Source: Halorhabdus sp. BNX81
Lineage (GTDB): Archaea; Halobacteriota; Halobacteria; Halobacteriales; Haloarculaceae
DNA length: 64,000 nucleotides
Direction: 5' to 3'
NCBI RefSeq assembly: GCF_029229925.1
Contig: NZ_CP107254.1
Location: 496,001 to 560,000, forward strand
Each line of letters starts with the position of its first letter. The first letter of the stretch is position 1. Positions 53,465-64,000 of this stretch are shown here, piece by piece. The position numbers and the translations under genes are program-made. The notes below the pieces were generated by a model. It made no database searches. It saw only the letters and a program-made list of their open reading frames with translations, and was not told the DNA's origin.

Positions 53465-54194
53465 TGTTTCTCGTGTGCAGTCACTGGGGTCTCTGTTTTC
53501 GGACACCGCCTTTTGATAATATTGACAAATATACCGCTTTAGAAAGGCGACTGGTCGACCCAACTGCCCCGCGACGATCTACTGGCAACACGATGTCATT
53601 GATTCGGTCTTGCGTTGCTGGCTGTTGGTACTGTTTTCCGAGCAGCAGCCGGGTTTCACTTGGCTTGTGTTGCCCGATACTTCTCCCGTAAACAACCGAT
53701 AATGGCTCTCTCTGACCGACTCTCGGCGTCAGGGGTGCACGACATTGTGACCGACTGAACGTCGGATCTCGAGTTGAGCGGGGAGACCAACTCATTGACG
53801 ATATGTTAGTAATGAATGTATTTAGTACTTGTTCTATAGTGGGGTATTTGCCAGAATACACATACTCTAATTTCACGTGATAGGACTTGTATACGAAATA
53901 TGCCAATATCGGATTTAAATATCAATTCGTCTATTTGGGGGATGGGCGCAAACGATCGCTTGCATGTCAACCGAGGGACTACGTCGGCTTGATGGGCCGA
54001 TCACGTTTCGGCGTCCGGGGTCACTGATCGGCACGCTTCGTCCCGATTCCTGTCCGATCAACTGCATCTCGAACGCGATCAATCCGCTCTCATACGTTAC
54101 AGGATCTCACAATGTGGGCCGCTGGTCGGTTCGTTCAGTTCCGGGTAGCCGGACAACCGACCATCTTATTTACGTTCACCGAGTTCCTTCCGGT
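53465..54194. other. 730-base stretch without a gene
   Basis: The first part (to ~53950) is AT-rich in places and carries no frame with haloarchaeal protein composition; a minus-strand frame of 141 codons over it resembles nothing I know. The last part is GC-rich, and the frame in phase with the DUF1616 gene upstream of ATG 54195 is unlike a protein. A TATA-like tcttatttacg (54165-54175) lies about 25 bases before that ATG. No insertion-sequence ends or tRNA are seen. It may be decayed DNA at the island edge. Confidence 0.5.
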
Positions 54195-55277
54195 ATGGTA
54201 TCACGTTCGGACTGGCGGTTACTACTGCCCGAGCGAGTCCGACGCCTTCCGTTCGATCTGGCGTTCGTCTTTACGTCCGTCGTCGCGGTCAACGTGGTTG
54301 TCTTTCTCCCCTTTCTGCGGGAGACACCACTCGTTGTGTTCGGGGTTCCGTTTGTTCTGTTTGTTCCCGGGTACGCGTTCATCGCGGCACTGTTCCCGGA
54401 ACGTAGTCAGCGGCCTGCGGAGGGGAGGGCCGAGACGCCGGACGGATCTCGATCCACGACTGACCGGGGGATCGACGGAATCGAACGTGTCGTCCTCTCC
54501 GTTGGATTGAGTACCGCGGCCGTTCCGCTGCTCGCACTCGTGCTCAACGTTACGCCGTTCGGAATCCGTCCCGTTCCGATCATGGTGACAGTCAGCCTGT
54601 TCACTGTCGTGATGACAATCATCGCCGCGTACCGACGCCGGAAGCTTCCACAGGAGCAACGCCTTCGAGTCCCGTACCGCCAGTGGACCGAGCTGGCCAG
54701 AACGGAACTGTTCGCTCCCGACAGTCGGACTGACGCCGCGTTGAACGTCCTCCTTATCGTGAGCATTCTGCTCGCGACAGCCAGTGTCGCCTACGCCGTC
54801 GCCGTCCCCAAACAGGGCGACGGGTTCACTGCAACGTATTTGCTCACGGAATCCGACGACGGCGACCTCGTCGCCGACAATTACCCGACGAACTTCACGG
54901 TCGGCGAGCCACAGTCACTGATCGTCGGTGTCTCCAACCACGAACACGAACGGACCGACTATACGGTCGTGGTGGAACTCCAGAACGTGACGCTGCTCAC
55001 GAACGAGTCGGCCCAGGTCGATCGGATCCGACAGAATGCGACTCGATCGGGTGCCGTGTCGATCCACGTGGATCGGACCGTCGAACTCGACCGATTCACA
55101 GTCCCGCTCTCTCACAACGAGACCTGGCACCACGAGCACGCGGTCACGCCTCCGTTCGCCGGGGACGACCTTCGGCTGACCTATCTGGTGTATCGCGGCG
55201 ATCCACCGGCAGATCCATCGACGAAGTCGGCCTATCGGTGGCTCGCACTTCGGGTCGATGCCGCCCCTGACACGTAG
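54195..55277 (+). CDS. DUF1616 membrane protein
   Basis: 360 residues from ATG 54195. Four membrane helices: FVFTSVVAVNVVVFLPFL, VVFGVPFVLFVPGYAFIAAL with the DUF1616 signature RETPLVVFGVPFVLFVPGYA, VVLSVGLSTAAVPLLALVLN, and IMVTVSLFTVVMTIIAAY. A fifth helix (LNVLLIVSILLATASVAYAV) leads to an outside beta domain with EHERTDYTVVVELQNVTLL. DUF1616 proteins occur in archaeal surface-glycan loci; function unknown. The ATG is placed by the TATA-like box ~27 bases upstream. Confidence 0.85.
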   Translation: MVSRSDWRLLLPERVRRLPFDLAFVFTSVVAVNVVVFLPFLRETPLVVFGVPFVLFVPGYAFIAALFPERSQRPAEGRAETPDGSRSTTDRGIDGIERVVLSVGLSTAAVPLLALVLNVTPFGIRPVPIMVTVSLFTVVMTIIAAYRRRKLPQEQRLRVPYRQWTELARTELFAPDSRTDAALNVLLIVSILLATASVAYAVAVPKQGDGFTATYLLTESDDGDLVADNYPTNFTVGEPQSLIVGVSNHEHERTDYTVVVELQNVTLLTNESAQVDRIRQNATRSGAVSIHVDRTVELDRFTVPLSHNETWHHEHAVTPPFAGDDLRLTYLVYRGDPPADPSTKSAYRWLALRVDAAPDT

Positions 55278-55457
55278 CGAGCGCACGCCCACCCGAGGGG
55301 TGGAGACCGTCAAACCGCGTGTGCGGTTGCTCCCCGACGCTACACAGCTATCCGCTCCATACCCAACGTCTATGTAGACCGAAATCTTGTTAATTGATAA
55401 TGAGGATACTATGTCCGGATCAGTGACTGTCGGGTGTCCATCCACGGGGTATCGAAC

Positions 55458-58025
55458 ATGAGCGTACTCAAACAAGTTGCTACCGTCGTCGTGGCGATCG
55501 TGATGGTCCTCTCGATCGCCGGGGCGAGCGCCGCCTTCGCGGTCAATGGGACGATTCTGAACAGCGATCACATCGCCGGGACGTTCGAGGACGAGGGTGT
55601 CTACGAATCGGTGGCGGCGGACGGCCGCGAGCGGATCAGCGGGGACCTAGACGACACGTTCGAACAACGAGCCGACGATATTCCGGCGGGGATCACCTTC
55701 GATATCGACGGTCAAGCCGCCGCCGAGGCGGCACTGACGGAGGCGTACGTCGCCGGGGAGTTCGCCACCAACATCGACCAGTTGCTCGCCTATCTGAAGG
55801 GTGACACCGCGAAGCTCTCCCTCCAGGTCGACCTGGTTCCGGTCAAAGAGTCGCTGGGCGAGTACGTCGCGAACGACACCATCACCGTCGACACGGTCGC
55901 CCTGGCGAACGAACGGGGGATCAACGTGACGACGGCCGGGGTGACGGTCGACAGCGAGCTGCTCGCCCGGCTGAACGAAGACCGGGCGGGCTACGAACAG
56001 ACCCGGATCCAACTCCGATCACAGGCTGTCGAGGGGGCGGACGTTCCGGTCTCTCTCGATGCCAACGGATCTGTCGTAGTCGATACTGCCACGTTCCTTC
56101 GACAAACGGCGTTCGACGCGGAACAGGACGGTGTCACGGTCGACACCGCGATGCTCCTCCGGATGAATGCAAACCAGTCCGGGTACGCCCACGCCCGGGT
56201 CGATATTCGATCCCAAGCACTCCGACAGACGGATATTCCCATGACAATCGCCGACGACGGCAGCGTTGCGGTCAATACAGTCAATATCAGCCAGGAGGTT
56301 ACTTTCACGTCGAGTCAGGACGATGTGGCGATCGACGACGGGATGATCGCCCGGCTGAACGCAAACCAGTCCGGGTACGACGCCGTTCGTGTCGAGGTCC
56401 GCTCACAGGCACTTACGGCGTTCCCCGTCGACGTCGACGGCAACGGCACGGTCGTCGTCGAGACGGTCGACATCGCCCGGGAGATCGATTTCGAGTCCGA
56501 CACTGCCGACATCGACGTCACTAACGACATGATCGAGCGGCTGAACGACGGGTCGGACGGATACGCGGCGGTCCGGTCGGACATCCGTGACCAGGTCCGG
56601 GACGAACTGCCACCGATGGCGACGTCCGCTCAGGTCGATTCCGCCCTGCGGGAGATCAATACCGAACTCACGGCGAGTGCGACCAGCCAGGCCCGTACTG
56701 ACTACGGGGATAACGTCACCGAAGAGACGCTCGATGACATTATCGCGTTGCAGAACACGGTCATCGATGGGCTGACCGATCCCGATCTCACCGACTACGA
56801 CGACTATGCAACCCGACGCGACGACAACGAAGCCACGCTTTCGGATTCGTTCGGTCGCGAACTCGACGATGGGCTCCGGGAGGCCAACGACGCGATCAAG
56901 ACGGACGCCGCCGAGCAGGCCCGTACTGACTACGGGGACTCAGTCTCGAACGAGACGCTTGGTGACATCGTTGCCCTCCAGAATACAGTCATCGACGGCT
57001 TGACCGACCCTGATCTTGCGGACTACGAGGCGTACGCAAACCAGCGCGATGCCGACGAGACTGCCCTGGAGGAATCCCTCACCACTGAGTTAGAAGACCG
57101 GCTCGGAGATGTCAACGAAGAGATCAAGGCGGACGCTGCCGCGGAGGTCCAATCCGAGTACGGGGACGACGTCTCCGCGGAGACGCTGGCAAACATCACC
57201 GCATTGCAACATACCGTCATCGACGGGCTCACGCGACCAAATCGGACGTACGACGAGTACGCAAGCCAGCGTGACGCCGACGAAGCTGCCCTGGCGGCTT
57301 CGTTCGACCGTGAACTCGACGACAAACTCAGAGACGCCGGGACAGAGGTCAAAGAAGATGCCGCAGATCGGATCCGGAATGAGTACGGCGATGACGTGTC
57401 AGGGGACACCCTCGATGATGTCATCGCGCTGCAAAACACAGTCGTCGATGGATTGACTGACCCTGATCTCACGTACGACGCGTACGCCAGCCAGCGTGAC
57501 GACGCCGAGGCTGCCCTGGAAGCGTCACTCGCCGCCGAACTTCGCAACCGGATCGACGACCAGGTCGACGATCGCATCGCACTCGGGAACGTCACCGGCG
57601 AGGGGGCCGACGCGCTCTCGACTGTCCGGAGTGGCGTCGGATTGGTCGGCTCGCTCGGACTCGTCCTGGGACTCCTCTTTTTGGCACTGGTCGGCGTCGT
57701 CTACGCCGTCACCCGATCGATCCATCGGACGGTCTCGACGGCGGGGTATTCACTGCTGGTCGCCGGCATTGTCGGCGTTGCCGTCGGGATCCTCGCGAAC
57801 GCTCCGGTACTGGATCTCGTCGATACCGCCCTCGAATCGTCCGAGGACGAGCTGTCCGGCACCGGCGTCGGCGAGGCGATCCGAAGCATCATCGAGAGCC
57901 TGTTCGGTGCGCTGACGATGCAATCGGCCGTGCTTGCAATCGTCGGCGTCGTGCTCGTCGCGTTCGTCCTCGCCGACAGGCGTGGCAATCTCGAGGCACT
58001 GAAAGAGCGGGCGCGCGGTTCCTGA
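55458..58025 (+). CDS. Large membrane-anchored repeat protein
   Basis: 855 residues from ATG 55458. A signal or anchor helix (VATVVVAIVMVLSIAGASAAF), then VNGTILNSDHIAGTFEDEGVY, then two repeat families. The first (~55910-56620) has units of about 60 residues with MIARLNANQSGYDAVRVEVR and VDIAREIDF. The second (~56640-57590) has four units of 75-76 residues with YGDNVTEETLDDIIALQNTV and DGLTDPDL. The C-terminus has three helices (LGLVLGLLFLALVGVVYAV, YSLLVAGIVGVAVGI and VLAIVGVVLVAFVLA). The repeats are acidic and mostly helical, probably an outside stalk. I do not recognise a family for the repeats; the two membrane ends resemble a group of membrane proteins also seen in actinobacteria. Function unknown. 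Confidence 0.8.
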   Translation: MSVLKQVATVVVAIVMVLSIAGASAAFAVNGTILNSDHIAGTFEDEGVYESVAADGRERISGDLDDTFEQRADDIPAGITFDIDGQAAAEAALTEAYVAGEFATNIDQLLAYLKGDTAKLSLQVDLVPVKESLGEYVANDTITVDTVALANERGINVTTAGVTVDSELLARLNEDRAGYEQTRIQLRSQAVEGADVPVSLDANGSVVVDTATFLRQTAFDAEQDGVTVDTAMLLRMNANQSGYAHARVDIRSQALRQTDIPMTIADDGSVAVNTVNISQEVTFTSSQDDVAIDDGMIARLNANQSGYDAVRVEVRSQALTAFPVDVDGNGTVVVETVDIAREIDFESDTADIDVTNDMIERLNDGSDGYAAVRSDIRDQVRDELPPMATSAQVDSALREINTELTASATSQARTDYGDNVTEETLDDIIALQNTVIDGLTDPDLTDYDDYATRRDDNEATLSDSFGRELDDGLREANDAIKTDAAEQARTDYGDSVSNETLGDIVALQNTVIDGLTDPDLADYEAYANQRDADETALEESLTTELEDRLGDVNEEIKADAAAEVQSEYGDDVSAETLANITALQHTVIDGLTRPNRTYDEYASQRDADEAALAASFDRELDDKLRDAGTEVKEDAADRIRNEYGDDVSGDTLDDVIALQNTVVDGLTDPDLTYDAYASQRDDAEAALEASLAAELRNRIDDQVDDRIALGNVTGEGADALSTVRSGVGLVGSLGLVLGLLFLALVGVVYAVTRSIHRTVSTAGYSLLVAGIVGVAVGILANAPVLDLVDTALESSEDELSGTGVGEAIRSIIESLFGALTMQSAVLAIVGVVLVAFVLADRRGNLEALKERARGS
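56640..57590 (+). repeat. Four tandem 75-76-residue coding repeats
   Basis: The codon for Tyr of the YGD motif occurs at 56703, 56931, 57159 and 57384: spacings of 228, 228 and 225 bases, or 76, 76 and 75 residues. Each unit carries a YGD-x-V/V-ET box, ALQNTVIDGL or a variant, an acidic YA-x-x-RD box and an E/DL-x-x-L-RD/D box. The protein copies have diverged, as have their DNA sequences, so this is an older duplication. Confidence 0.8.
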
Positions 58026-58120: not shown

Positions 58121-59248
58121 ATGACCGACGACCCCGAGGAGGGGATGCTCTCCTGGGACGAATCCGTCTTCCGGGACGAGCACGTCTTCGAGATCGACTA
58201 CGTCCCCGAGACGTTTCGCCACCGCGAGAGCCAGATGGAGAGCCTGAAATACGCCCTCCGGCCCGCGGTGCGTGGTTCCCGCCCGCTGAACGTCATCGCT
58301 CGGGGCCCGCCGGGGACGGGCAAGACGACGGCGGTCCAGAAACTCTACGGCGAACTCGGCTCCCAGACGGACGTCCGGGTCGCCCGCGTCAACTGTCAGG
58401 TCGACTCGACGCGGTATGCGGTGTTCTCGCGGCTCTTCGAGAGCGTCTTCGAGTACGAACCGCCGGCCAGTGGTATCTCCTTCAAGAAACTGTTCGGCCA
58501 GATCACCGAGAAACTCGTCGACGAGGGGGAGGTCCTGGCCGTCGCACTGGACGACGTCAACTATCTCTTCTACGAGGGGGAGGCCTCGGATACGCTCTAT
58601 TCGCTCCTTCGCGCCCACGAGGCCCACTCCGGGGCGAAGATCGGCGTGGTCGTCGTTTCCTCGGACCTGGATCTGGACGTTATCGAGGAATTGGACGGGC
58701 GCGTCCAGAGTGTCTTCCGCCCGGAGGAAGTCTACTTTCCGAAATACGACGAGCCCGAAATCGTCGATATCCTCGACGAACGCGTCGAGCGCGGGTTCCA
58801 CGAAGGCGTCGTCGACGCGCCGATTCTGGATCGCGTGGCCGAACTCACCGCCGAGCAGGGCGGGGACCTCCGGGTCGGCATCGACCTGTTGCGCCGGGCG
58901 GGGCTGAACGCCGAGATGCGTGCGAGCAAACACATCGAGGGAGAGGACGTCGAGGCGGCCTTCGAGAAATCCAAGCACGTCCACCTCTCCCGGCACCTCA
59001 CGGGCCTCTCCGACAGCGAGCGTACCCTGCTGGCGGTGATCGCCGATCACGAGGGCGAACTCGCGGGCGACGTCTACGAGACTTTCAACGAGGAGACTGA
59101 TCTCGGGTACACCCGGTATTCGGAGATCATCAACAAACTCGATCAACTCGGACTGATCGAGACCAGCTATACGAGCGTCGATGGCCGCGGGCGCTCGCGT
59201 GAACTTTCCCTACAGTACGAACCGGACGCCATCAAAGATCGGTTATAG
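58121..59248 (+). CDS. Orc1/Cdc6-family protein, divergent paralogue
   Basis: 375 residues, the usual size. Family members bind origin repeats and load the MCM helicase. Walker A GPPGTGKT (62-69) is intact. Walker B reads AVALDDVNYL (D144-D145), with Asp where most have Glu; sensor 1 reads VVVSSDLD with Ser in place of Asn. The lid continues DGRVQSVFRPEEVYFPKYDE, and a C-terminal winged helix runs from SDSERTLLAVIADHEGELA to QLGLIETS. I see no origin recognition repeats around it, so it may not mark an active origin. Confidence 0.87.
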   Translation: MTDDPEEGMLSWDESVFRDEHVFEIDYVPETFRHRESQMESLKYALRPAVRGSRPLNVIARGPPGTGKTTAVQKLYGELGSQTDVRVARVNCQVDSTRYAVFSRLFESVFEYEPPASGISFKKLFGQITEKLVDEGEVLAVALDDVNYLFYEGEASDTLYSLLRAHEAHSGAKIGVVVVSSDLDLDVIEELDGRVQSVFRPEEVYFPKYDEPEIVDILDERVERGFHEGVVDAPILDRVAELTAEQGGDLRVGIDLLRRAGLNAEMRASKHIEGEDVEAAFEKSKHVHLSRHLTGLSDSERTLLAVIADHEGELAGDVYETFNEETDLGYTRYSEIINKLDQLGLIETSYTSVDGRGRSRELSLQYEPDAIKDRL

Positions 59249-59295: not shown

Positions 59296-59583
59296 TCAGT
59301 CCTCTACCGCAACGTCGACAGGGCTGTCAGTCTCTTCGGGTGCGTCGATGGCGACCTCGGGTTGCTCATCCTCGTCAGTGAGTGCCCAGGCGAGCACCGA
59401 AACGACGATCGACACCACGATGCTCGCGATCACGAGCCGACCGATCGATCGACCGTCGTCGGCGTCGGCAGCCTCGTCCGCGACGGTCGCTTCGGGTTCC
59501 GGTTCGTTCTCGTTGGCCATGCCGGGGCCGATTCTCGCGTTGTCGAGGTGGACCTCGAACAGTGTCAGGTTTTCTAGTACCAT
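59296..59583 (-). CDS. Small membrane protein, unknown
   Basis: 95 residues from ATG 59583. The start MVLENLTLFEVHLDNARIGP is followed by a disordered acidic stretch (NENEPEPEATVADEAADADD), one membrane helix (RLVIASIVVSIVVSVLAWAL) and an acidic C-terminal tail. The composition is haloarchaeal. No family is recognised. ATG 59583 was chosen over the upstream 59631 because the extra residues (RRARQVYTSP) are out of character. Confidence 0.7.
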   Translation of the reverse strand: MVLENLTLFEVHLDNARIGPGMANENEPEPEATVADEAADADDGRSIGRLVIASIVVSIVVSVLAWALTDEDEQPEVAIDAPEETDSPVDVAVED

Positions 59584-59690
59584 ATCGACACTTCGCCCGG
59601 GACTGGTATATACCTGCCGTGCGCGACGCACGTGCGCCGGTGGCGTGTCGACGACCGAACTGATCGGAAAGCGTGCGGGCCGGCCCCCGC

Positions 59691-62600
59691 TCAGATTCGG
59701 AGCCGGCGGACTGCTGTCGTTGCGTCGCTGAGGGAGTCGTCGCTCGCGGCGGCGACGATCAGTCGGCTCTCGCCGTGGTCTACGTCAAGCGTCCCCTCGA
59801 AGGTCCCATCTTCGACCCGGATGCGCGTCGAATCCACCGGGCTCTTGACTGCCACTACCTGCCCGTCGGTCTCGCCGAAGACCTCGATACTGTTGCCGCG
59901 AAACGTCGTTTCGACCCGCAGGTCGGGACGCTCGGCGTCGTGTAGGCCCCGCTCGCGGAATCGGTCGGCGACGACTTCGGGCGTCTCGACGGGTTTGCCG
60001 GCGTCGATACCGTGGGCCAGCCGGACGTACTGGGCCATCGCCCAGGCCAGCGGCGTCGCCGACCCGGTCCCTTCGCCGAACTCCCAGCCGTAGTCGGTTT
60101 CGACATCCCGGTCCCAGACCTGCTCGGCGATCATCCGCCCCTCGTTGGCGAAGGTGGCCATCGCCCGCAGGCACCCTGCCGCGCCGAGGTCCGTCTCGGT
60201 ATGGAGCTCGAACTCGCCGCGTTCGCCCGTCAACAGCGGCCATAGCCGCCCCTTCCCCGAGTGCTCGACCGACCAGGGGGCACCCTTATCACCCCGTTCG
60301 CGCTCGCCGTAGCCGTCGCCGTTGTACCGATAGAACCCGGCGGCCTCGCCCACGTCGACGCGGATCGTGTCGTCGACTTCCACGAGTGAGTTCCCGATCA
60401 CGGGATCGTCGGCGGGCGTGATGCCCAACCGGACGAGCTCCAGAAAGCCGGCGTCGAGGACGTCGCGTTCGTCCAGTGTGGGTCCGTCGTTGGCCAGCGT
60501 CCGGAGGTAGCCGGCGTCCGGGTCGCCGTCGGCCGTCACCCGCACGTAGTACGGTGTCGTCGTGTGCCGATCCGTCCCGGTCGTCGTCGCGGTCCAGGAG
60601 TCGACCGACCTCGCCCACTCGTCGGCGACCGCCTGCCAGACCAGCGCGTCGGCGTCGTGATCAGTCTCGGCAGCGAGCTGACTCGCACAGGTCAACCCGG
60701 CGATCTCGGCTGCGATCGACGACGGCGAGTATCCCGACTCTTCCTCCCAACGTTCCTGGGCGGAGTCGGGGCCGTTGCGGGCGACGTAGTCGGCCGACCG
60801 GGCAACGTTGACGTAGTCGTAATCGGTGTCGGCAAAGCCGATCCCCTGGTTGGCGAGCTGGTAGGCCATCACCTGCGGGAACGAGATGTTGTCCATCTGT
60901 TCGCCACCCCACCGCGTCCGCCCGTCGACGTAGGTGTTCTGGGGGATAAAACCACGTTCGTCCTGCTGGTACTCGTAGATGTACTCGAGTTGGGCCTGGG
61001 CGATATCGAGCGCACCGACGGCCTCGAAGACGGTGAACACCTGATAGAGATCCCGTGACCACACGAAGTTGTAGCCGTACCCTTTCGGTTCGTCGGCGGG
61101 GACGGCCTCGCCCCAGGGAACCGATGGCGAGGCGATCGACGCGCCGTGGAAGGTCTTGTCCTCGACGGCGTAGAGACTCATCAGCGACGTGCGGTACTGG
61201 GCGGCAAGCGTCTCGTCGTCCGCGACGGCCCCGGGGAGGGGCTTGTCCGCCACGAAAGTCCGCCAGGTGTCGTCGTAGGCCGTGCCGACGGTCCCGAAGC
61301 CGCGTTCGAGCGCGCCAGTGGCCTCACCGAGCGCGGCAGCCGTATCCGCGTGCCGGGCGAATCCGAGTGCGATCGTCCCGGCCGTTCGGGTGCCGGTCCC
61401 CAACCGGCCAACCAGGACGACGTTCTCGCCGTCGACAGTCTCTCGGGCCGGCGGTAACTCGCCGTCACGGTACAGCGCCCGGAGTTCCTCGCTGCCGGCC
61501 GTGGCGACTGTCGCCCACTCGAAGCGACTTGCCGCTGCCATCGCGATCGCCACCGAGTACGCCTCCCCATCGGCGTCAGCCAACAGCGTGCCGTCGGTCT
61601 CGCCGGTGTAACCCGTCGGATCGCGGGCGACCAGGTGATGGTCGCCCCGGTTGCCGAGTCTGATCCCCCGGTCGGCCACGGCCGTATTGGTGAGTGCGAC
61701 GTCCGTGACTGCGTAAATCTCGTATTCGGTGTCGTCGGTCGCCTCGAACGACACGTCGGCGACGAGGGCGTCGTGGCTGGGATCGGTGACGTACTCGACG
61801 GTGAGTTCCCAGGTATGGCCCTGGCCGTTGCCCCCCTCCTCGAAGACGTGACGGAACCGAAGTGATTCGTCGTCTATCGGCTCGACGCGTCGTTCTAGGG
61901 TGTCTTCGGAGCGACGGTCCTCTTTGTGGGTTCGGATCGTGTATTCGCCGTCCGCCGACCGGACCAGGAAATCAAGCGTCCGGACGTTCATGAGGTCGAC
62001 CCGCGGGAATCGCACTTCCGTGAGGGCTCCGCGGGTGAGTGTCGACCAGACGCGCGAGGGGTCGGCGGTATCGTGGTCGGCCGCGGTCACCAGCCCGAGT
62101 TTCTCGCCGGTCGTCCAGGTGGGTTGTTCGTCCGGTCCCTCGATCGCCGTTCGGGCCGGGAGTGCGGCCTGGTCGTCGAGCAGCGCTGTTGTGTGCAACC
62201 GCAATGCGTGTGCCCATCCCAGCGGTGCGGCGCTGTCGAGGTCGCCGCTGTCGAAGACCTGTTCGGCGAGGTAGCCCGCTTCCGTCGTTAGTGCCCCGTC
62301 CTCGTCGAGTAGCTCGTAGAGCTCGGCCGCCTGGTCGAGGAAGCGATCACCGTCCCGGTCGTGCGCGTCGAGCAGGACGGCCAGTTTCGCGGCGGCCACC
62401 GCCCCCCAACTCGTCGAGACCGACCAGATCTTCTCGTGGCCCTGGTCGTCACGACGCCACTGATCGCCTTCGTACCGGGCCAGACCAGCGACCGGACTCC
62501 CGTCAGGATCCCGATACAGCGTCCCGATCGTCGTCTCGACGTGAGTTTCGAGGCGATCGACCAACTCCTCGCCCAGGATCGTCCCCTCGACGTGATCGTA

Positions 62601-64000
62601 CGCGTCGACCGCCTCGACCAGCGCCAGCCCGGCGCTATCGAGCCGACGGTCGGGTTCGGCGTCGTCCAGCCGCATCACGTAGGCCCCCATCTCGTCGTCC
62701 CAGAGAGTCGAGAGCCCGGACAACACCGCTTCGGCTCCACTCAGTGCCCGCTCGCGGATCGGCTTTCGAATCGGTGCTCTGGCGACTGACGACAGCGCCT
62801 CGATATAGGTGGCCGCCGTGTGGAGTGACTGCCCGGTGGCGTCCTCCCAGAGTGTCTGACAGGGAGATGGCAACCCGTTGTCGTCGATGTCCCGCACCAG
62901 CGCGTCGACGGCTTCGACGATCGTTTCTCGGATGGAAACGGTCACGTCGTCCTCGAGGTCGCCCTGGCGCTCTCGAAGCAGCGTTGCCAGGAACGCCGTC
63001 ACGGAGGCGGTCTGGTCGGCCTGGTACTCCAGGGACTCGTCGTTGTGTTCGACGTTCGCGTTCGCCCAGCCCGGTGCTAGCGAGCCGTCCGAGGCCCAGA
63101 CGCGGTGGGGCCAGGTCCCGTCGGGAAGTTGCTGGCGGCACTGAAAGCGGGCGCTGCGCTGGAGTGCGTCGAGAACGTCCATCTGGAGGCGGTCCCCGGC
63201 CGCAAGCAGTCGGCGAGCGATCTCGGCGTCGTCACGGAACCAAACGTAGCCATAGCCTCCTGAATTGGCGAAGAACGTGTCGAACTCCGGGGCTGCGATG
63301 TGGCCCCCGTCTTTCGCTTCGAGCAGGTCAAGCACTCGCATGTCCGTCCGAACCAGCGACGAACGGGGCGTCTCCTGGGGCACGGTGACGAAGGTGCGGT
63401 CGCGGGCCGCTTCCCGGAGGGCGTCAGCGCTCGCGTGCTCGCGCGCACAATTGCGGAGATCCGCAAGCGCCGTCCCCCGGTTGATCTCGGCGTGATCGGA
63501 GAGCTGGCTCACCAGCGTCGTCCGGTTGCTCCGGCCGGCCCGTTTGAGGGGTGCACTCACCAGGAAGTCCCCGCTGAGGCGGGTCTGGTCGTAGGCCTGT
63601 GTCGCCGTCCCGCGCGGGAACGAAACCGGCTCATCCCCCAGGATCTCCTCGAACTGCTCGGGGCGCTGGCCCTTGATCGATTCGAGCCCCGTCGAGGCCG
63701 CCAGGTAATCGTGTTCGCGCCGGTGATAGACTTCCAGCGCCCGCGTGCCGTCGGGCCCGCCGTCGTCGTGGATCAACGCTCCGACGCCCCCCTCCTTGCC
63801 TTCCGGGGCCAGCGTGAGGAAGGCGACCAGGCTGGCCGCTTCCGGGACGGCACCCCGAAGTTCGACGTGGGTGACGTGGGCCCGCCCGAGTGTCAGGTCG
63901 TACTGGTGGACGGTGTAGGCACCCGCGTCGTATTCCGTCTCGACGAGCCTGGTGTCCCGGTAGTAATGCTGGCGGATCGTCTCCAGGTCGTCGAACCACT
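59691..64000 (-). CDS. GH15 glucoamylase/glucodextranase-type protein with two catalytic halves (5' end outside window)
   Basis: At least 1,435 residues; the frame stays open to the right edge, so the start is missing (the TTG near 63776 is internal). GH15 enzymes release glucose from the non-reducing ends of alpha-glucans with inversion. Both halves look like GH15. N-terminal half: GYGYVWFRDDAEI (~63216-63255), NDESLEYQADQTASV with the acid Glu, and LAEQVFD (base Glu, ~62248-62275). C-terminal half: GYNFVWSRDLYQV (~61040-61078), RWEEESGYSPSSIAAEIA (~60700-60755) and IAEQVWDRD (~60105-60135). Each half ends in an APLGWA/TPLAWA motif. A beta-sandwich domain (LRFRHVFEEGG, DVSFEATDDTEYEIY) lies between them. 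No signal can be judged because the N-terminus is missing. Confidence 0.85.
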   Translation of the reverse strand, partial: WFDDLETIRQHYYRDTRLVETEYDAGAYTVHQYDLTLGRAHVTHVELRGAVPEAASLVAFLTLAPEGKEGGVGALIHDDGGPDGTRALEVYHRREHDYLAASTGLESIKGQRPEQFEEILGDEPVSFPRGTATQAYDQTRLSGDFLVSAPLKRAGRSNRTTLVSQLSDHAEINRGTALADLRNCAREHASADALREAARDRTFVTVPQETPRSSLVRTDMRVLDLLEAKDGGHIAAPEFDTFFANSGGYGYVWFRDDAEIARRLLAAGDRLQMDVLDALQRSARFQCRQQLPDGTWPHRVWASDGSLAPGWANANVEHNDESLEYQADQTASVTAFLATLLRERQGDLEDDVTVSIRETIVEAVDALVRDIDDNGLPSPCQTLWEDATGQSLHTAATYIEALSSVARAPIRKPIRERALSGAEAVLSGLSTLWDDEMGAYVMRLDDAEPDRRLDSAGLALVEAVDAYDHVEGTILGEELVDRLETHVETTIGTLYRDPDGSPVAGLARYEGDQWRRDDQGHEKIWSVSTSWGAVAAAKLAVLLDAHDRDGDRFLDQAAELYELLDEDGALTTEAGYLAEQVFDSGDLDSAAPLGWAHALRLHTTALLDDQAALPARTAIEGPDEQPTWTTGEKLGLVTAADHDTADPSRVWSTLTRGALTEVRFPRVDLMNVRTLDFLVRSADGEYTIRTHKEDRRSEDTLERRVEPIDDESLRFRHVFEEGGNGQGHTWELTVEYVTDPSHDALVADVSFEATDDTEYEIYAVTDVALTNTAVADRGIRLGNRGDHHLVARDPTGYTGETDGTLLADADGEAYSVAIAMAAASRFEWATVATAGSEELRALYRDGELPPARETVDGENVVLVGRLGTGTRTAGTIALGFARHADTAAALGEATGALERGFGTVGTAYDDTWRTFVADKPLPGAVADDETLAAQYRTSLMSLYAVEDKTFHGASIASPSVPWGEAVPADEPKGYGYNFVWSRDLYQVFTVFEAVGALDIAQAQLEYIYEYQQDERGFIPQNTYVDGRTRWGGEQMDNISFPQVMAYQLANQGIGFADTDYDYVNVARSADYVARNGPDSAQERWEEESGYSPSSIAAEIAGLTCASQLAAETDHDADALVWQAVADEWARSVDSWTATTTGTDRHTTTPYYVRVTADGDPDAGYLRTLANDGPTLDERDVLDAGFLELVRLGITPADDPVIGNSLVEVDDTIRVDVGEAAGFYRYNGDGYGERERGDKGAPWSVEHSGKGRLWPLLTGERGEFELHTETDLGAAGCLRAMATFANEGRMIAEQVWDRDVETDYGWEFGEGTGSATPLAWAMAQYVRLAHGIDAGKPVETPEVVADRFRERGLHDAERPDLRVETTFRGNSIEVFGETDGQVVAVKSPVDSTRIRVEDGTFEGTLDVDHGESRLIVAAASDDSLSDATTAVRRLRI

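Follow-up and report, generated by a model that had tools for sequence, protein, structure and literature searches.

The window, a 64,000-nucleotide stretch of the Halorhabdus sp. BNX81 genome (contig NZ_CP107254.1, positions 496,001 to 560,000 of the forward strand), contains an open reading frame on the plus strand at positions 55458-58025, which encodes a protein of 855 amino acids (aa). An alternative GTG codon lies upstream at 55434, and the ATG at 55458 is preferred as the start because the orthologues keep MSVLK or MSLLK there. These orthologues, from two sister species of the genus, are 69 to 75% identical to the window protein and adjoin the same orc1 gene. Directly upstream is a gene for a DUF1616 protein (53964-55277, plus strand; PF07760, E value of 2e-109), an orthologue of which lies near the locus in the sister species that has five copies of each repeat described below (L032:12015-13112) and was not found in the segment examined from the sister species that has four of each. 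The Orc1/Cdc6-type gene (58121-59248, plus strand; AAA_16/AAA_22 and Cdc6_lid domains) begins 95 bp downstream, with syntenic counterparts in both sister species that are 92 to 97% identical to it. It is followed by a small gene (59296-59631, minus strand), whose 111-aa product has a single probable membrane helix and matches nothing in Pfam and which lies between orc1 and a GH15/glucodextranase-type glucoamylase gene (59691-63776, minus strand; 1361 aa or longer) that adjoins orc1 in L032 too. The first-pass annotation had remarked on the placement of the gene between the glycan island and Orc1; the position is right, although it is common to the two sister species only and carries no functional signal. 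No conserved functional neighbor was found, with synteny being limited to the genus (orc1, DUF1616, and GH15) or to apparent housekeeping genes.

Membrane topology and repeat units

From the N to the C terminus, the protein has a single membrane helix, four A repeats, four B repeats, and three more membrane helices. TM1 (55476..55541, aa 7-28), predicted by hydropathy as an N-terminal signal anchor, is kept across the family. It is followed by a membrane-proximal N-terminal ectodomain (55542..55865, aa 29-136), delimited in the family alignment, which is kept even in family members that lack the A and B units. Repeat and profile analysis places A1 at 55866..56057 (aa 137-200), A2 at 56058..56249 (aa 201-264), A3 at 56250..56435 (aa 265-326), and A4, the distal end of the A array, at 56436..56621 (aa 327-388). 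The B array begins at its distal end with B1 (56652..56879, aa 399-474), which packs with A4 in an AlphaFold2 (AF2) model, and continues through B2 (56880..57107, aa 475-550) and B3 (57108..57332, aa 551-625) to the membrane-proximal B4 (57333..57557, aa 626-700), which is orthologous to the last B unit of the other expanded members. TM2 (57648..57713, aa ~731-752), TM3 (57741..57809, aa ~762-784), and TM4 (57912..57977, aa ~819-840) are placed by hydropathy, with TM4 leading into a basic C-terminal tail that is predicted to be cytoplasmic; all of these features are on the plus strand. The hydropathic segments themselves span aa ~10-28 for TM1 and aa ~733-751, ~766-784, and ~821-839 for TM2 to TM4.

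The earlier description of two repeat families between membrane anchors, ending in three C-terminal helices, is borne out by the anchor spacing, independent profiles, and hydropathy. The conserved A anchors fall at aa 171, 235, 299, and 361 (spacings of 64, 64, and 62), and the B anchors fall at aa 431, 507, 583, and 658 (spacings of 76, 76, and 75). The four B units, of 76, 76, 75, and 75 aa, are thus as first described, whereas the preceding units of "about 60 residues" are resolved into a family of four, of 64, 64, 62, and ~62 aa. At the DNA level, the repeat register is 192 nt and 225 nt. With profiles built from 39 independent single-unit relatives, all four A units match with E values of 5e-5 to 6e-7, and all four B units match with E values of 3e-9 to 2e-16. 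The DNA registers and the independent-profile matches to all eight units indicate that the repeats are not due to chance. The A and B profiles do not match one another, and each matches single-unit A or B regions elsewhere with 97 to 98% probability; this computation shows that the A and B families share no homology. The units are arranged as AAAABBBB and not as ABABABAB.

The TM3-TM4 loop is acidic, in contrast to the basic N terminus, TM2-TM3 loop, and C-terminal tail. On the basis of hydropathy and this charge pattern, both termini are predicted to lie inside the cell and the intervening ~690 aa outside. The ectodomain contains 13 N-X-S/T sequons, compared with 4.4 in shuffled sequences, an excess that is inflated by the repeats themselves. 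The positive-inside pattern and the sequons agree in predicting an exterior location, and the earlier suggestion of a stalk-like surface ectodomain is supported to that extent. The ectodomain is strongly acidic (156 D+E against 48 K+R), as had been noted for the units, which is normal for haloarchaea and nothing special; the accompanying description of the units as helical does not fully apply to A, whose units are not purely helical.

Scans against Pfam, NCBIfam, PHROGs, and PADLOC returned only subthreshold noise (Yip1, DUF4064, SpoVR, and a phage tail family). The Yip1 hit (PF04893) scored 18.2 bits against a cutoff of 28.6, covered the transmembrane region only, and did not recur in 14 relatives. 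Neither the window protein nor these 14 relatives match the EsaA or YhgE-Pip models of NCBIfam or Pfam, and no match to FtsX (PF02687) or MacB_PCD was obtained up to an E value of 1. The spectrin repeat gave no Pfam match, and a utrophin spectrin repeat ranked 50th, with an E value of 3.1, among the PDB fold matches. A PDB sequence search yielded nothing significant (annexin, E value of 0.09), and literature searches found no published description of the protein. The initial impression of a new-looking protein therefore stands, with no characterized domain family having been found for its repeats in Pfam, NCBIfam, or the PDB.

Distribution of the family and numbers of A and B units

In profile searches, members were detected in 32 of 146 genomes from the host's family, 39 of 392 from the order, and three more from the phylum. 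This is an undescribed family, present in a minority of haloarchaea and in a few other archaea of the same phylum. Its members are mostly 400 to 600 aa long, and most have one A and one B unit (1/1). Two such members come from a family of the same phylum that lies outside the haloarchaeal order (L082:4108-5352 and L083:396-1646; G476 and G659). Within the genus of the window, a near-complete genome (G005) has no family member that we could see, and three congeners (G001-G003) have only a single-unit, nonsyntenic version. The relative from Halovenus carboxidivorans (L047) is 46% identical to the window protein and was the sole relative recovered by a scan of genome contigs; no family member was found in the plasmid and viral collections searched.

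The units were counted with profiles made from the A and B segments of 39 single-unit proteins only, to which the expanded proteins contributed none; two truncated or short frames (G048 and G137) were excluded. Within Halorhabdus, the A/B counts are 4/4 in the window protein and 4/4 and 5/5 in the sister species. In the genus Halovenus, H. carboxidivorans has 2/2 and another member has 3/3, and 3/3 is also found in two genomes of a distant family. Three paralogues are 0/0, and all other full-length members examined are 1/1. The 0/0 paralogues (L056, L054, and L051; G133b, G147b, and G138) belong to the genus Halovenus and have long Q- or acid-rich tails that are predicted to be cytoplasmic. 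A closer profile detects the second A unit of H. carboxidivorans with an E value of 5.6e-18, and with it G146 is a clean 1/1 relative. In the distant 3/3 clade, each species has one weak A copy (E values of 1.4 and 0.23); when the two orthologues are aligned, every A copy reaches significance in one or both of them, so that the count is supported by both together. The number of A units equals the number of B units in all full-length members examined, for n from 0 to 5, and no unequal count was found among them. Two unrelated repeat families, separated in the sequence, thus change copy number in step. The comparison of copy number in relatives that the first-pass annotation had proposed revealed this equality, and its expectation of a variable copy number holds at the level compared here, that of species (four or five in the window protein and its sister-species orthologues).

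A maximum-likelihood tree of the constant regions of 52 proteins implies at least seven changes in the number of A/B pairs (rungs), and at every one of these changes, A and B moved in step. The expansion in Halorhabdus and Halovenus (support of 98/97) is separate from that of the distant 3/3 clade (98/94). When the six distinct lineage counts were randomly re-paired, equality was obtained in 2 of 720 permutations, a rough test in that the lineages of the first clade share ancestry. In trees of the individual units, the A1 units of the expanded species are orthologous to one another, and so are their last B units, as would be expected of a base rung next to the membrane. In the 5/5 species, the extra A unit arose recently by duplication of A3 (DNA identity of 91% between A3 and A4 in the stretch compared). 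The extra B unit of this species falls among B2 to B4 (DNA identity of 86% between B3 and B4, again in the stretch compared), where apparent homogenization between B units masks the newcomer. Mirror-tree correlations exceed random expectation whether the register is taken as antiparallel or parallel and do not choose between the two.

Predicted fold and a nested-hairpin interpretation

Structure prediction of the tandem array, also proposed earlier, gave a poor model for the full-length protein and a confident one for its center. The full-length AF2 model, made from a two-row alignment, has a pLDDT of 49.5 overall, with residues 350 to 690 mostly at 65 to 83; pairing of A1-A3 with B4-B2 is not seen directly in it. 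In its B array, where the pLDDT is about 70 to 80, helices of 19 and 46 residues alternate regularly, and the long helix spans the unit boundary. A 154-aa fragment comprising A4 and B1 was predicted as one compact module with a pLDDT of 92.4 and a pTM of 0.87, from an alignment of the A and B units of the window protein and H. carboxidivorans only and with no alternative partner in the fragment to choose. Foldseek searches with this module gave no significant match (best E values of 0.59 in the PDB and 0.31 in BFVD), and the best PDB matches of the full-length model had E values of 0.2 or higher. The two families had been described as successive segments; two arrays do exist, but their counts are coupled, and A and B are predicted to fold as one module.

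Because the counts are equal, ordinary relatives have a single A and a single B, and A and B are predicted to form one module, the array reads best as a hairpin of nested modules. We estimate a probability of about two in three that the ectodomain is such an out-and-back hairpin of nested A+B modules anchored at the cell surface, its register and stalk length being the parts that go beyond direct observation; the stalk itself is well supported. The chain would exit via the A array, turn at the A4/B1 junction, and return to the membrane via the B array, with each rung being a compact module, mixed but mostly helical, made of an A and a B unit. A_i would pack on B_(n+1-i), giving A1[A2[A3[A4 B1]B2]B3]B4, in which the antiparallel register of the outer rungs is extrapolated. 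The stalk would lengthen solely by the addition of A and B in step, such that its length would depend on the number of paired rungs; at an estimated ~40 Å per rung ((46 - 19) residues × 1.5 Å), four rungs would span ~160 Å and five would span 200 Å. In 1/1 members, the chain would likewise go out via A and back via B, with the A|B junction as the tip. If copies of one domain are nested at this tip, each added copy necessarily comprises an A and a B, which accounts for the equal counts, for A^nB^n as the order of units, for the joint loss to 0/0, and for insertion at the junction. The junction does tolerate insertion, as expected of a tip, with one 1/1 branch carrying a separate conserved segment exactly there. 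This segment of ~80 aa, with the motif ...DYDP..YTEEEK..., occurs in L044:7461-9122, L040:7500-9011, L041, L043, and relatives and is a candidate alternative tip domain. The stricter "Russian doll" form of this interpretation, in which a single discontinuous A+B domain, with a fold that has no Foldseek match in the PDB, has been inserted into itself at A|B up to five deep, seems to us evenly poised between right and wrong.

Several other arrangements and roles were weighed against this hairpin. The A and B repeats each form a clean tandem array and could be two independent arrays in series, with their equal counts reflecting coincidence or shared ancestry; common descent within Halorhabdus and Halovenus does explain part of the agreement. 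The counts, however, match at every value from 0 to 5 and again in a separate clade, and the permutations rarely reproduce them, while the chain returns to the membrane at TM2-4 and A and B are predicted as one module, making independence very unlikely. Rungs formed between chains, with the A array of one subunit packing on the B array of another in a domain-swapped or oligomeric stalk, would select for equal numbers just as well, and oligomers are known among other hairpin membrane proteins with elongated ectodomains. A4 and B1 are nevertheless contiguous and confidently predicted to fold together in one chain, and in many 1/1 members A is joined to B by only a short linker; we consider such swapping improbable.

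With regard to function, we favor the inference that the protein is a surface spacer or display stalk, which would carry its tip close to the S-layer, through it, or above it. The S-layer of Haloferax volcanii surrounds a pseudo-periplasmic space and limits access to the membrane (PMC8640222). A role as a ligand-binding or adhesion receptor, for instance in cell contact or for a virus, with the rungs as binding repeats that set its valency and with length being secondary, is compatible with the hairpin structure. Variable surface repeat arrays are typical of adhesins and virus receptors, and the gene is patchily distributed (see the 32 genomes above), but no adhesin domain was found, and this role is rather unlikely as the primary one. 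The four membrane helices with a large TM1-TM2 ectodomain, as placed by hydropathy, also recall the topology generally known for FtsX and MacB, which would suit a length-tuned adaptor or transporter accessory, similar to these or to a membrane fusion protein, that couples the membrane to an outside partner. Against this, there is no FtsX, MacB, or HlyD domain match and no conserved ABC ATPase or export partner nearby, and such an adaptor is quite improbable.

Ordinary stalk proteins gain length by simple tandem duplication; when two separated repeat families change in number together, as here, this points strongly, and in a readily testable way, to a nested hairpin. If this hairpin interpretation is true, the protein would be a natural case of recursive domain self-insertion and a modular scaffold of adjustable length, for which nature already offers versions with 0 to 5 rungs, and the surface of haloarchaeal cells would have a new component that has no name yet. 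Two features look new, namely, growth by whole pairs of unlike repeat modules and a module fold for which no PDB counterpart was found.

Relation to known hairpin, repeat, and nested proteins

In EsaA, YueB, and Pip (YhgE), one N-terminal membrane helix is followed by C-terminal membrane helices. EsaA has an elongated ectodomain on a polytopic membrane protein (PMC9600267). The window protein shares with this group the order of an N-terminal helix, a large region predicted to be extracellular, and C-terminal helices, an agreement seen in hydropathy and charge, with its elongation suggested by the helices of a partly confident model. It differs in having three C-terminal helices rather than more and paired A/B repeats, and no T7SS genes were seen nearby. 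The cytoplasmic hairpin of methyl-accepting chemotaxis proteins (MCPs) evolves by symmetric heptad indels, which give length classes such as 36H and 40H in the classification of Alexander and Zhulin (summarized in PMC5907407). The window protein would share with it the design of a membrane-anchored, out-and-back hairpin whose length evolves by matched indels in the two arms, as described for MCPs (PMC5907407). The MCP hairpin, however, is a cytoplasmic coiled coil that changes by 7 residues per arm, whereas here whole units of ~64 and ~76 aa, unlike in sequence and fold, would be added in an ectodomain, and no sequence relation was found. The protein appears to work like a hairpin stalk, yet by sequence its family matches neither the chemoreceptors nor EsaA, and it is a member of neither family.

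In the model, the B array resembles the zigzag of spectrin-type repeats in that each long helix continues from one unit into the next and a short helix leads back between them. The B unit is shorter (76 aa compared with ~106 aa), has no sequence match or significant fold match to spectrin, and appears to need an A unit for a complete module. Nested domain insertions in general, in which a domain lies within a domain, repeatedly, have been described previously (PMC2662426). The domains nested there are of different folds, whereas those nested here are apparently copies of the same module.
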